Assembly: GCF_009789225.1 (NCBI RefSeq)
Contig: NZ_WSTA01000005.1
Span: 1-64,000 of the forward strand
Direction: 5' to 3'
From: Agromyces seonyuensis
Lineage (GTDB): Bacteria; Actinomycetota; Actinomycetes; Actinomycetales; Microbacteriaceae
DNA: 64,000 nucleotides
This document shows positions 29,158 to 56,290 of the stretch, in pieces. Each line of letters begins with the position of its first letter. Position 1 is the stretch's first letter. The notes below the pieces were generated by a model, which worked only from the letters and a program-made list of their open reading frames with translations, was not told the DNA's origin and made no database searches. The position numbers were made by a program, and so were the translations under genes.

Positions 29158-29207
29158 GTCTGAAGTTCTCCTGGTTCGTGGAAGTACGTGTCGAGTCGCA
29201 CGACTCG

Positions 29208-29281
29208 TCGGGGCGACAGGATTCGAACCTGCGACCTCCCGCTCCCAAAGCGGGCGCTCTACCAAGCTGAGCTACGCCCCG
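29208..29281 (-). tRNA. tRNA-Pro (TGG)
   Basis: Acceptor CGGGGCG/CGCCCCG, discriminator A, anticodon loop TTTGGGA (TGG), T-loop TTCGAAT, no encoded CCA. A small hairpin (CGAGTC/GACTCG, 29192-29206) separates it from tig. Confidence 0.95.
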
Positions 29282-29454
29282 AGCCGTGCCTCAACTCGTG
29301 GACCGCAATGCCGGCACCGCGCGCAGGGCGCGCGAACCGACGGCGGACCGTCCGCCAGTCTACTGCACGCGCCCGGGGGCGTTCGTGGGGGTCATCCAGG
29401 ATGACCGGAGCGCGACTTCGAGCCCGCGTGCACGGATCGCCCCTCGGCATCTTG

Positions 29455-29460
29455 TAGGAT
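29455..29460 (+). promoter_or_regulatory. Candidate -10 for tRNA-Gly (TCC)
   Basis: TAGGAT ends 28 bases before the tRNA. No convincing -35 is seen at normal spacing. Confidence 0.4.
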
Positions 29461-29487
29461 TGCCGAGGCCCGAGAAACCGGGCCGAC

Positions 29488-29561
29488 GGGGATGTAGCTC
29501 AATGGTAGAGCCTCAGTCTTCCAAACTGATCACGCGGGTTCGATTCCCGTCATCCCCTCCA
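29488..29561 (+). tRNA. tRNA-Gly (TCC)
   Basis: Acceptor GGGGATG/CATCCCC, discriminator U, encoded CCA, anticodon loop CTTCCAA (TCC), T-loop TTCGATT. Confidence 0.95.
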
Positions 29562-29619
29562 CGAGCCCGTCGCGGCGTGCATTCCAAGCCGTTCCGATCG
29601 TCGCCGACGCCCCCTGGGC

Positions 29620-29625
29620 TAGGTT
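29620..29625 (+). promoter_or_regulatory. -10 hexamer placing transcription start on the micro-ORF ATG
   Basis: TAGGTT ends 7 bases before ATG 29632, the same geometry as other leaderless starts in this window. Confidence 0.45.
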
Positions 29626-29631
29626 CGAGTC

Positions 29632-29664
29632 ATGACCGCGGCACCGAGGGCGACGATCCGATGA
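29632..29664 (+). CDS. Leaderless ten-codon leader ORF coupled to the methylase
   Basis: ATG 29632 encodes MTAAPRATIR and stops at TGA 29662, overlapping the methylase ATG (29661) as ATGA. The hexamer TAGGTT upstream would start the mRNA at this ATG. The methylase itself has no Shine-Dalgarno and no other in-frame start nearby, so its translation may depend on termination of this leader. The peptide itself probably has no function. Detected by inspection; expression is inference. Confidence 0.4.
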   Translation: MTAAPRATIR

Positions 29665-30770
29665 TCAAGTACCTGGGGTCCAAGCGCACCATGGTGCCGG
29701 TGCTCGGCCGCATCGCCGAGGCGGTCGAGGCGCGGAGCGCGGTGGACCTCTTCACCGGCACGACCCGGGTCGCGCAGGAGTTCAAGCGCCGCGGGCTCGA
29801 GGTCACCGCCGTGGATGTCGCGAGCTACAGCCGGGTGCTCGCGGAGTGCTTCATCGCCCTCGACGCCGCCGACGTCGACCTCGACGAAGTGGCATCGGCG
29901 CTCGACGAGCTCAACGCGCTGCCGGGCCGTGCGGGCTACGTCACGGCGCACTTCAGCGAGGACGCCCGCTTCTTCCAGCCGCAGAACGCCCGCCGCATCG
30001 ACGCCGTGCGCGACCGCATCGAGGCCGTGTACGCGGGCACGGCGCTGCATCCGGTGCTGCTCAGCGCCCTGCTGCTCGCCGCCGACCGCGTCGACTCGAC
30101 GACCGGCGTGCAGATGGCGTACCTCAAGCAGTGGGCGCCGCGATCGGCGCGCGACCTCGAGCTGCGGATGCCCGAACTGCTGCCCGGCGCGGGCGTCGCG
30201 ATCCAGGGCGACGCGACCGAGCTCGCGGCCGCACTCCCCCGCACCGACCTGCTCTACCTCGACCCGCCGTACAACCAGCACCGCTACTTCACGAACTACC
30301 ACGTGTGGGAGACCCTCGTGCGCTGGGACGCCCCCGAGCCCTACGGCGTCGCGCGCAAGCGCCTGGACGCCCGCGACCCGTCGACCGCGTCGGTGTTCAA
30401 CCGCAAACGGCAGATGCCGGGGGCGCTCCGCCGAGTCATCCTGGATGCCCGTGCCGACACGGTCGTGCTCTCGTACAACGACGAGTCCTGGGTCGGCGCC
30501 GACGACCTGCGACGCGCATTGCTGGACGCCGGCCACGAGCACGTCGAGCTGCTCGAGTTCGACGCCAAGCGCTACGTGGGCGCGCAGATCGGCATCCACA
30601 ATCAGGCGGGCGAGAAGGTCGGCACCGTCTCGCACCTGCGCAATACCGAATACCTCTTCATCGCGGGTTCCCGGGAGCGCGTCGAAACAGCCGTGGCGGC
30701 GGCCGCGGCCACGCCCGCGACGACGTCGGCGCTGCGTCTGCGACGCGCGGAACCCTCCGCCATCGCGTGA
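29661..30770 (+). CDS. DNA adenine methylase (D12 class), orphan
   Basis: 369 residues beginning MIKYLGSKR, the typical start of D12-class N6-adenine methyltransferases. AdoMet-binding motif I is DLFTGTTRVAQEF (about residues 30-42) and the catalytic motif IV is YLDPPYNQH. It transfers a methyl group to adenine in DNA. No restriction enzyme, specificity subunit or DNA-repair gene is adjacent, so it is either an orphan regulator-type methylase or has another role. ATG 29661 overlaps the stop of a ten-codon leader ORF. Target sequence unknown. Confidence 0.88.
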   Translation: MIKYLGSKRTMVPVLGRIAEAVEARSAVDLFTGTTRVAQEFKRRGLEVTAVDVASYSRVLAECFIALDAADVDLDEVASALDELNALPGRAGYVTAHFSEDARFFQPQNARRIDAVRDRIEAVYAGTALHPVLLSALLLAADRVDSTTGVQMAYLKQWAPRSARDLELRMPELLPGAGVAIQGDATELAAALPRTDLLYLDPPYNQHRYFTNYHVWETLVRWDAPEPYGVARKRLDARDPSTASVFNRKRQMPGALRRVILDARADTVVLSYNDESWVGADDLRRALLDAGHEHVELLEFDAKRYVGAQIGIHNQAGEKVGTVSHLRNTEYLFIAGSRERVETAVAAAAATPATTSALRLRRAEPSAIA

Positions 30771-30801
30771 GGAACGCCAGGTCAGCCCAGCCTTCCCTCG
30801 C

Positions 30802-30829
30802 TTGAAATACTCGCGGGCATCCCTAACGT
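30802..30829 (+). promoter_or_regulatory. Promoter of dps
   Basis: TTGAAA (30802-30807), 16-base spacer, TAACGT (30824-30829); transcription would start about 34 bases before ATG 30870. Stationary-phase or oxidative sigma control is possible but not shown. Confidence 0.45.
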
Positions 30830-30869
30830 TGTAGAGGTACAGACATCCGGACAAGGGAAGGGGACCCGA

Positions 30870-31349
30870 ATGACCGACATCATCACGCCCAAGGCCGGCA
30901 GCTACGCCGAAGCCGCGGAGGCCACCGCGAAGTACCTGGAGCCCGTCGTGCAGCAGCTCGTCGCGCTCGCCGTCAACGGCAAGCAGGCGCACTGGCACGT
31001 GCGCGGCGCGAACTTCGTCGCGGTGCACGAGTTCCTCGACGTGGTCGTCGACCACGCGCAGGACTTCGCCGACACCGCCGCGGAGCGCATCGTCGCCCTC
31101 GGCACGCCCGTCGCGGCGCGGGTCTCCGACGTCGCGAAGGCCGAGCCGGTCGAGCCGCACACGGGTTTCCAGACGGCCGAAGCGACCATCGCCGACGTGA
31201 TCGCGCAGATCGACCTCGCCACGGCGAAGGTCAACGAGGCGATCGAGGGGCTCGAGAGCGCCGACCCGACGAGCCAGGACGTGGCCATCGAGATCCGCCG
31301 CGGTCTCGACAAGGACCGCTGGTTCCTGTTCTCGCACATCGCGAAGTGA
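30870..31349 (+). CDS. dps: Dps family DNA-protection ferritin-like protein
   Basis: 159 residues, the usual Dps length. The four-helix bundle carries ferroxidase ligands in KQAHWHVRG and in AVHEFLDVVVDHAQDFAD, which form the intersubunit iron site. The protein forms a 12-mer shell that oxidises iron with hydrogen peroxide and can bind DNA. A GGGAAGGGG ribosome site precedes the ATG. A terminator follows. Confidence 0.93.
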   Translation: MTDIITPKAGSYAEAAEATAKYLEPVVQQLVALAVNGKQAHWHVRGANFVAVHEFLDVVVDHAQDFADTAAERIVALGTPVAARVSDVAKAEPVEPHTGFQTAEATIADVIAQIDLATAKVNEAIEGLESADPTSQDVAIEIRRGLDKDRWFLFSHIAK

Positions 31350-50662: not shown

Positions 50663-50724
50663 TCCGGAGTGCGCCGAACGCCCGCCGTGAGGCGACTTCC
50701 GGCGTACTGAAGCACGGAGGATGC

Positions 50725-52613: not shown

Positions 52614-54296
<1,683 letters not shown>

Positions 54297-55765: not shown

Positions 55766-56290
55766 TCAGGCGAGCACGTACTCGGCGAAGCCCGCGCGGA
55801 TCTTGTTGACCTTCGGCACGGCGGCTATGAGGCAGTAGCCCTGCTCGGGGTTCTTCGCGAAGAAGTCCTGGTGGTACTCCTCGGCGTCCCAGAAGGCGCC
55901 GAGCGGCTCGATCGTCGTGACGACGTCGCCGGGCCACCATTCTGCGGCGCGCTCGCGCGCGGCCTCGAACAACTCGCGCTGGCCGTCGCCGACGAAGAAC
56001 ATCGCCGAGCGGTACTGGGTGCCGACGTCCTCGCCCTGGCGGTTCAGCTGCGTCGGGTCGTGCAGCGTGAAGTAGGCGTCGAGCACGATCTCGCGCGGGA
56101 GCACCTCTGGGTCGAAGACGACCTTGACGACCTCCGCGTGCCCGGTCGCACCGGCCTTGACCTGTTCGTAGGTCGGCTCGTCGAGGTCGCCGCCGGTGTA
56201 GCCCGAGACGACCTCGGTGACGCCGCGCATCGTGCGGTACACCGCGTCGAGACACCAGAAGCAGCCGCCGGCCAGTACGAACGTTTCCAT
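55766..56290 (-). CDS. msrA: Peptide methionine (S)-S-oxide reductase MsrA
   Basis: 174 residues. Active site GGCFWCLD with the nucleophilic Cys (residue 10); YTGGD and QYRSAMFF follow. It reduces methionine-S-sulfoxide in proteins. A resolving Cys is in QGYCLIAA. The start is leaderless: minus-strand TAGCCT (56302-56297) ends 7 bases before ATG 56290. Divergent from the aldo/keto reductase, with the same hexamer serving both strands. Confidence 0.95.
   Translation of the reverse strand: METFVLAGGCFWCLDAVYRTMRGVTEVVSGYTGGDLDEPTYEQVKAGATGHAEVVKVVFDPEVLPREIVLDAYFTLHDPTQLNRQGEDVGTQYRSAMFFVGDGQRELFEAARERAAEWWPGDVVTTIEPLGAFWDAEEYHQDFFAKNPEQGYCLIAAVPKVNKIRAGFAEYVLA

Follow-up and report, generated by a model that had tools for sequence, protein, structure and literature searches.

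A predicted leaderless micro-ORF overlapping the start of a DNA adenine methylase gene in Agromyces seonyuensis

The methylase locus and its leader

The stretch of DNA analysed here in full, referred to as the window, comprises 64,000 nucleotides of Agromyces seonyuensis and carries on its plus strand a gene for a D12-class N6-adenine DNA methylase of 369 amino acids (29661–30770). The protein matches PF02086 with an E-value of 4.3e-33 (115.5 bits against a gathering score of 22), contains the DPPY motif and finds its best match in the PADLOC type II methylase model MTase_II (E 9.5e-147). Its score for the Dam subfamily TIGR00571 is 19.9 bits, below the curated cut-off of 114.85, and no solved structure matches it in sequence at E 0.01. 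Seven neighbouring genes were scanned, namely those for trigger factor, ClpP and ClpX on one side and for a Dps-type ferritin-like protein, a response regulator, a sensor kinase and a multicopper oxidase on the other. The domain and the DPPY motif are those of D12-class adenine methylases (PF02086), but as no restriction gene is found among the seven neighbours the methylase is referred to as solitary.

The gene lies in an interval of variable length, which is bordered on the left by a tRNA-Gly (TCC) gene directly upstream (29488–29561, plus strand) and on the right by the ferritin-like gene (30870–31349, plus strand; PF00210). In the genus this interval (29562–30869 in the window) is an apparent insertion hotspot. 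Among the 30 same-genus ferritin-like loci compared (L093–L122, from 60 matches) a tRNA-Gly gene lies upstream on the same strand in 19, window included, the other 11 having no same-strand tRNA-Gly in the stretch compared. From the tRNA to the start of the ferritin-like match, which in some cases falls a few codons inside the gene, the distance over the 19 loci is 105–1383 bases, with 1308 in the window and 125 in L094. This variability suggests that the methylase was gained in this lineage together with its promoter. The distribution of the methylase is patchy. A search of 60 genomes of the genus finds an orthologue in the window's own genome alone, and one further genome contains a relative of 29% identity. 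At E 1e-60 the methylase is detected in 11 of 398 genomes sampled from the family, 7 of 396 from the order and 9 of 346 from the phylum (overlapping samples, own genome included), and in 35 of 67 from one other genus of the family.

Upstream of the methylase is a TANNNT-type −10 element, TAGGTT (29620–29625, plus strand), with GGC directly before it. A spacer of six bases, CGAGTC, separates this element from ATG 29632, the A of which is the predicted transcription start. This ATG opens a micro-ORF of ten codons (29632–29664, plus strand) that encodes MTAAPRATIR. Its codons are ATG ACC GCG GCA CCG AGG GCG ACG ATC CGA, and its TGA stop (29662–29664) overlaps the methylase ATG 29661 to form an ATGA tetramer (29661–29664). 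The micro-ORF is out of frame with the methylase and the two ATG codons are 29 bases apart. An earlier note on this DNA had placed the −10 element, the ATG, the ten-codon frame and the overlap at exactly these positions. It had also seen no other in-frame start nearby, which is made more precise here: the next in-frame ATG, GTG or TTG codons are GTG 29577 and ATG 29691. The peptide has no cysteine and no run of a single residue longer than two, and is itself most likely without function.

The overlap needs little explaining, since codon 2 of the methylase is ATC and the TGA is consequently always there, with one frame in three ending on it. Among the homologues this codon is, with few exceptions, ATC or ATT, so that the TGA is nearly always present. 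Two GATC sites (29655–29658 and 29663–29666) were considered as an autoregulatory site and rejected, the second merely reflecting codon 2; many homologues of one freshwater genus carry ATT instead and do not keep this site. The label freshwater is that of Rhodoluna, to which L053 belongs.

Promoter spacing and the predicted leaderless start

In Actinobacteria TANNNT elements precede start sites at a characteristic distance (PMC3898074, PMC3160421), with the centre of the −10 element placed 7–12 bases upstream in the account of PMC3898074. TAGGTT is centred 9.5 bases before 29632. The surrounding bases also agree with the start sites described in that source, having [G/C][A/G]N before the −10 element, C at −1, A at +1 and T at +2.

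The spacing was compared across the methylase family. A search for relatives found 453, of which 80 were kept. For the set of starts, 149 could be located in 153 sources, and removal of 17 duplicates left 132, with the window included and near-copies among them. L177 is part of this set despite an uncertain start; not included are the window's own copy (L001), L002 (29% identity) and the viral loci. The four sources in which no start was located are L087, L166, L185 and L193; L087 looks leaderless, with one codon between its start and IKYLGSK. A TANNNT element stands six bases before the methylase start in 31 of the 132 and seven bases before it in 10, whereas any other spacing from 0 to 59 is represented by 0–7 starts. 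Spacings 23 and 24, with counts of 7 and 5, correspond to the box position of a clade of seven homologues discussed below. Allowing 5–8 bases gives 47 of 132 starts, as compared with a mean of 3.4 and a maximum of 10 in dinucleotide shuffles (n = 200). These 47 are predicted to be leaderless directly at the MIKYLGSK position or within a codon or two of it, and the promoter spacing thus indicates that genes of this family are often directly leaderless.

The same spacing stands out in the window. In 42 coding-like frames, picked by codon-position G+C and not by annotation, TANNNT is found at spacing 6 before 6 of 313 in-frame candidate starts, and never more than once at any other spacing between 0 and 33. 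Two of the seven matches at spacing 6–7 sit 34 and 62 codons inside their frame, and so not all matches represent real starts. Two short ORFs of the leaderless type are located near a gene start: the one at 29632, which overlaps its gene, and one at 50669 (plus strand), which does not. The latter is a 13-codon GTG frame with TAGACT at spacing 7, and ends 15 bases before a candidate gene start. Elsewhere in the window, starts at 56290 (minus strand) and 56308 (plus strand) have a leaderless appearance and diverge with 17 bases between them, sharing a near-palindromic −10 element (TAGGCTA/TAGCCTA) that is a candidate bidirectional leaderless promoter. A tRNA-SeC gene is predicted by ARAGORN at 54115–54198.

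The spacing in both window and family, together with the published actinobacterial rule, supports the proposal of the earlier note that 29632 is a leaderless start, in the sense of a predicted one. We infer that transcription from the promoter at 29620–29625 begins at the A of ATG 29632. The distance from TANNNT to the first start codon is that of directly leaderless actinobacterial genes, as described in PMC3898074 and PMC3160421. The difference is that the first start codon opens a micro-ORF and not the gene. This is best seen against three homologues from Citricoccus and Micrococcus (L022, L028 and L043), in which the box CTAGGTTCGAGGTC is directly followed by ATGATCAAG, opening at the ATG of the methylase. 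The window box is almost the same and leads over a nearly equal distance to ATG 29632, with the methylase start 29 bases later.

Direct and coupled starts in the methylase family

The earlier note had proposed that the leader be compared across related species, and the outcome of this is divided: the leader is absent in the nearest relatives, and its layout turns up again at two other places in the methylase tree. By tree path the nearest homologues are L004, L010, L007, L003 and L006. In L004, L010 and L006, and likewise in L005, TANNNT stands before the methylase start itself, and L003 has a weaker GACAAT at spacing 7 in this position. L007 has a short leader with TAGGGT further upstream and GGAGG before the start. 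The highest identity to the window methylase, 72%, is found in L084, with a likewise weaker GAGAAT at spacing 7, and no orthologue closer than about 72% was found. As none of the nearest homologues has the leader, it is not conserved among close relatives, and for these one of the results that the earlier note had named as refuting its proposal is thus obtained. Other relatives, such as L134 and L175, have strong Shine-Dalgarno (SD) starts. The layout occurs in none of the viral homologues (nine loci, of which L151 and L152 are alike over the part compared and L149 is without a clear start).

An element at spacing 6–7 followed by an ATG micro-ORF ending on NTGA is present in 9 of the 132 starts (shuffles: mean 0.23, maximum 2), that is, in 8 of the 131 starts other than that of the window. 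The nine are the window, L061, with a micro-ORF of 12 codons, and L045, L047, L053, L088, L124, L125 and L127. The last seven form one Microbacteriaceae clade in which each micro-ORF has six codons, encoding M-[NSR]-[KR]-G-x-x, and lies exactly 17 bases before the methylase start; L047 has one extra base before the ATG and the 17 bases that follow are unchanged. Some 6 bases ahead of the methylase start this clade also has AAAGG, AAGGG or AGAGG, and the same codons can therefore serve as an SD. Three weaker coupled cases are L027, L068 and L078. In L065 and L075 a six-codon ATG-to-NTGA frame begins 17 bases before the methylase start without TANNNT at the right distance. Conservation of the peptide across clades was considered and dropped, as the micro-ORF peptides of different clades are unlike by eye.

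On the methylase tree, a quick LG+G4 tree without bootstrap in which 40 of 129 inner branches are open, the coupled layout falls in three separate parts, that of the window included. Four changes are needed to account for it, and starred branches force no fewer than three of these. Coupled and direct starts alternate: the clade that holds the seven six-codon micro-ORFs contains two further homologues with direct starts (L128 and L132), and the window is coupled where its sister is direct. That the layout recurs at two other places on the tree suggests another way of starting the gene and not a conserved switch. The reading frame of the displaced starts is less informative. Among promoter–RTG pairs with spacing 6–7 within 60 bases of the methylase, nine are coupled, two are in frame with it (L069 and L177) and two are in the third frame. 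Collapsed by clade, the coupled cases are 3 of 6, with two in frame and one in the third frame, where two coupled would be expected, and there is no clear excess over one in three.

Translational coupling and its alternatives

Taken together, the leader probably acts as a leaderless micro-ORF that feeds ribosomes to the methylase by translational coupling. The promoter at 29620–29625 would give an mRNA that begins at the A of ATG 29632. Ribosomes would bind the bare 5′ AUG, read ten codons and stop at the UGA within AUGA. They would then restart one base back on the methylase AUG, weakly aided by an SD-like GAGGG and perhaps by the opening of an RNA hairpin. The micro-ORF would in effect be a ribosome entry ramp, by which an often leaderless gene stays translatable with its promoter 29 bases further upstream.

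Such an arrangement is plausible by analogy with described systems. A review (PMC12548453) names, as a proposed role of a short upstream ORF, that of delivering a ribosome. Shell et al. (2015, PMC4633059) describe in mycobacteria a class of ‘coupled’ leaderless small ORFs, 5–50 codons long, which start at the 5′ end of the mRNA and overlap the gene by RTGA. The class is over-represented there, and in some cases the layout is conserved and the peptide is not. The ten-codon, out-of-frame micro-ORF falls within this range of length, and ATGA 29661–29664 is a form of the RTGA tetramer. The 5′-end ORF, here a predicted one, the overlap and a peptide that need not be conserved are thus shared. The differences are that starts and ribosome occupancy were measured in that study, while the present case comes from sequence alone and concerns another actinobacterial family and another gene. 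In the example given by those authors the layout is kept at orthologous genes, without this being a requirement of the class; here it is absent from the nearest relatives and present in 8 of the 131 other starts. For the AUGA overlap of uPPE2 and ppe2 in Mycobacterium tuberculosis, PMC11260477 presents reporter evidence for termination–reinitiation. That case is similar in its out-of-frame upstream ORF and its AUGA overlap; a downstream SD is described as lacking there and is weak here. It differs in that the uPPE2 leader has an SD and is under a B12 riboswitch, while the leader described here is predicted to be leaderless and no riboswitch was found. Among the papers listed in literature searches, none has a title or displayed abstract on such a leader at a DNA methylase. 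The coupled layout is already known from mycobacteria, and judged by these likenesses the methylase leader would be a further case of it.

The main alternative, to which we give a limited but appreciable chance, is that the micro-ORF is accidental. The promoter, 29 bases upstream, would happen to start at an ATG, and the methylase would initiate on its own by means of GAGGG, the micro-ORF being translated with little effect. GAGGG lies inside the micro-ORF (29646–29650, plus strand), 10 bases before the methylase ATG, and scores −6.4 kcal/mol against the anti-SD tail. A score at least as good is reached by 29 of the 132 starts, window included, but by only 2 of the 47 directly leaderless ones. 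The statement of the earlier note that the methylase has no SD holds only in part, since this site is present; its spacing is long, however, and it is predicted to be mostly paired, both of which speak against independent initiation. The pairing belongs to a predicted RNA hairpin (29639–29699, plus strand), in which 29639–29646 pairs with 29692–29699 (methylase codons 11–13), enclosing GAGGG and the methylase start. Its energy is −29.5 kcal/mol (z −2.23), and 6 of 200 shuffles are as good. In the window the SD region is predicted to be 0.27 unpaired and the methylase start codon 0.56 unpaired. The latter value favours self-initiation to some extent. For directly leaderless homologues the median is 0.87, or 0.36 with 29 upstream bases added; with 0.56 above this second median, the hairpin does not hide the start strongly and backs coupling modestly. 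A ribosome reading the micro-ORF would open it.

Structure was also considered as a common feature of coupled leaders and rejected, as start-codon accessibility ranges from 0.30 to 0.81 in ten leaders with no pattern. An inverted repeat of 13 bases (92%) flanks the promoter and micro-ORF (29593–29605/29649–29661) and could hide the methylase start in read-through RNA from upstream. It was not used: although only 2 of 400 shuffles contain an exact inverted repeat of at least 10 bases, so do 28 of 495 tiles of equal size from the window.

Further points in favour of an accidental micro-ORF are the overlap guaranteed by codon 2, the frames that show no clear excess by clade, the nearest relatives without the leader and the strong SD starts of L134 and L175. 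Against it, full independence appears unlikely, as a ribosome that enters at the 5′ AUG is bound to terminate on the methylase start, and the ATG, the frame and the 17-base length are kept in one clade of seven. On balance translational coupling is the reading that we prefer.

It is unlikely that the mRNA begins elsewhere, for instance by read-through from the tRNA-Gly gene, which ends 70 bases before ATG 29632 on the same strand, or from an unrecognized promoter, with the TANNNT–ATG spacing due to chance. The promoter search found no sigma-70 consensus pair, which would suit such an origin, but the spacing peaks in both family and window, and the window box closely resembles that of the directly leaderless L022, L028 and L043.

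A stronger form of the coupling reading, and contained within its probability, is a regulatory leader, in which conditions vary the translation of the micro-ORF and so set the level of methylation. The layout permits this, and leaderless regulatory small ORFs are described for mycobacteria (PMC4633059, PMC9094748). A cysteine-responsive leaderless attenuator, however, has a cluster of cysteine codons near its end, and MTAAPRATIR has neither cysteine nor a longer run of one residue. In an Rfam scan of 29200–30900 two tRNAs alone reach the gathering score, with no riboswitch aptamer. A leader whose translation serves to control methylation, in extension of what the earlier note had suggested, is unsupported, given also the lack of conservation in the nearest relatives, and we regard it as quite improbable. 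Least likely of all is that ATG 29632 is the old start of an N-terminally extended methylase, put out of frame by a sequence error or an indel. The distance of 29 bases would need a single further base to be in frame, and in-frame displaced starts do exist in L069 and L177, but the 47 starts predicted to be leaderless lie at or close to the MIKYLGSK position and no such extension was seen in any close relative.

The arrangement is a clear-cut example, from beyond the mycobacteria, of a small ORF that is predicted to be leaderless and shares an ATGA with the gene that follows, in a methylase family that allows direct and coupled starts to be compared side by side. If coupling proves correct, micro-ORFs of this kind should count as a start signal in gene finding and expression modelling for Actinobacteria. 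If it does not, the case is a warning that an NTGA overlap comes cheaply wherever the second codon has A as its first base. A more far-reaching idea, which we consider doubtful, is that selection pins the family's transcription start to a start codon, either that of the gene itself or that of a throwaway micro-ORF which ends on the gene, with switches between the two states along the tree. What is preserved would then be ribosome entry at a bare 5′ AUG or GUG, and the amount of methylase made would vary with how well the cell can initiate on leaderless mRNA, for example under stress, giving a methylation state linked to translation.
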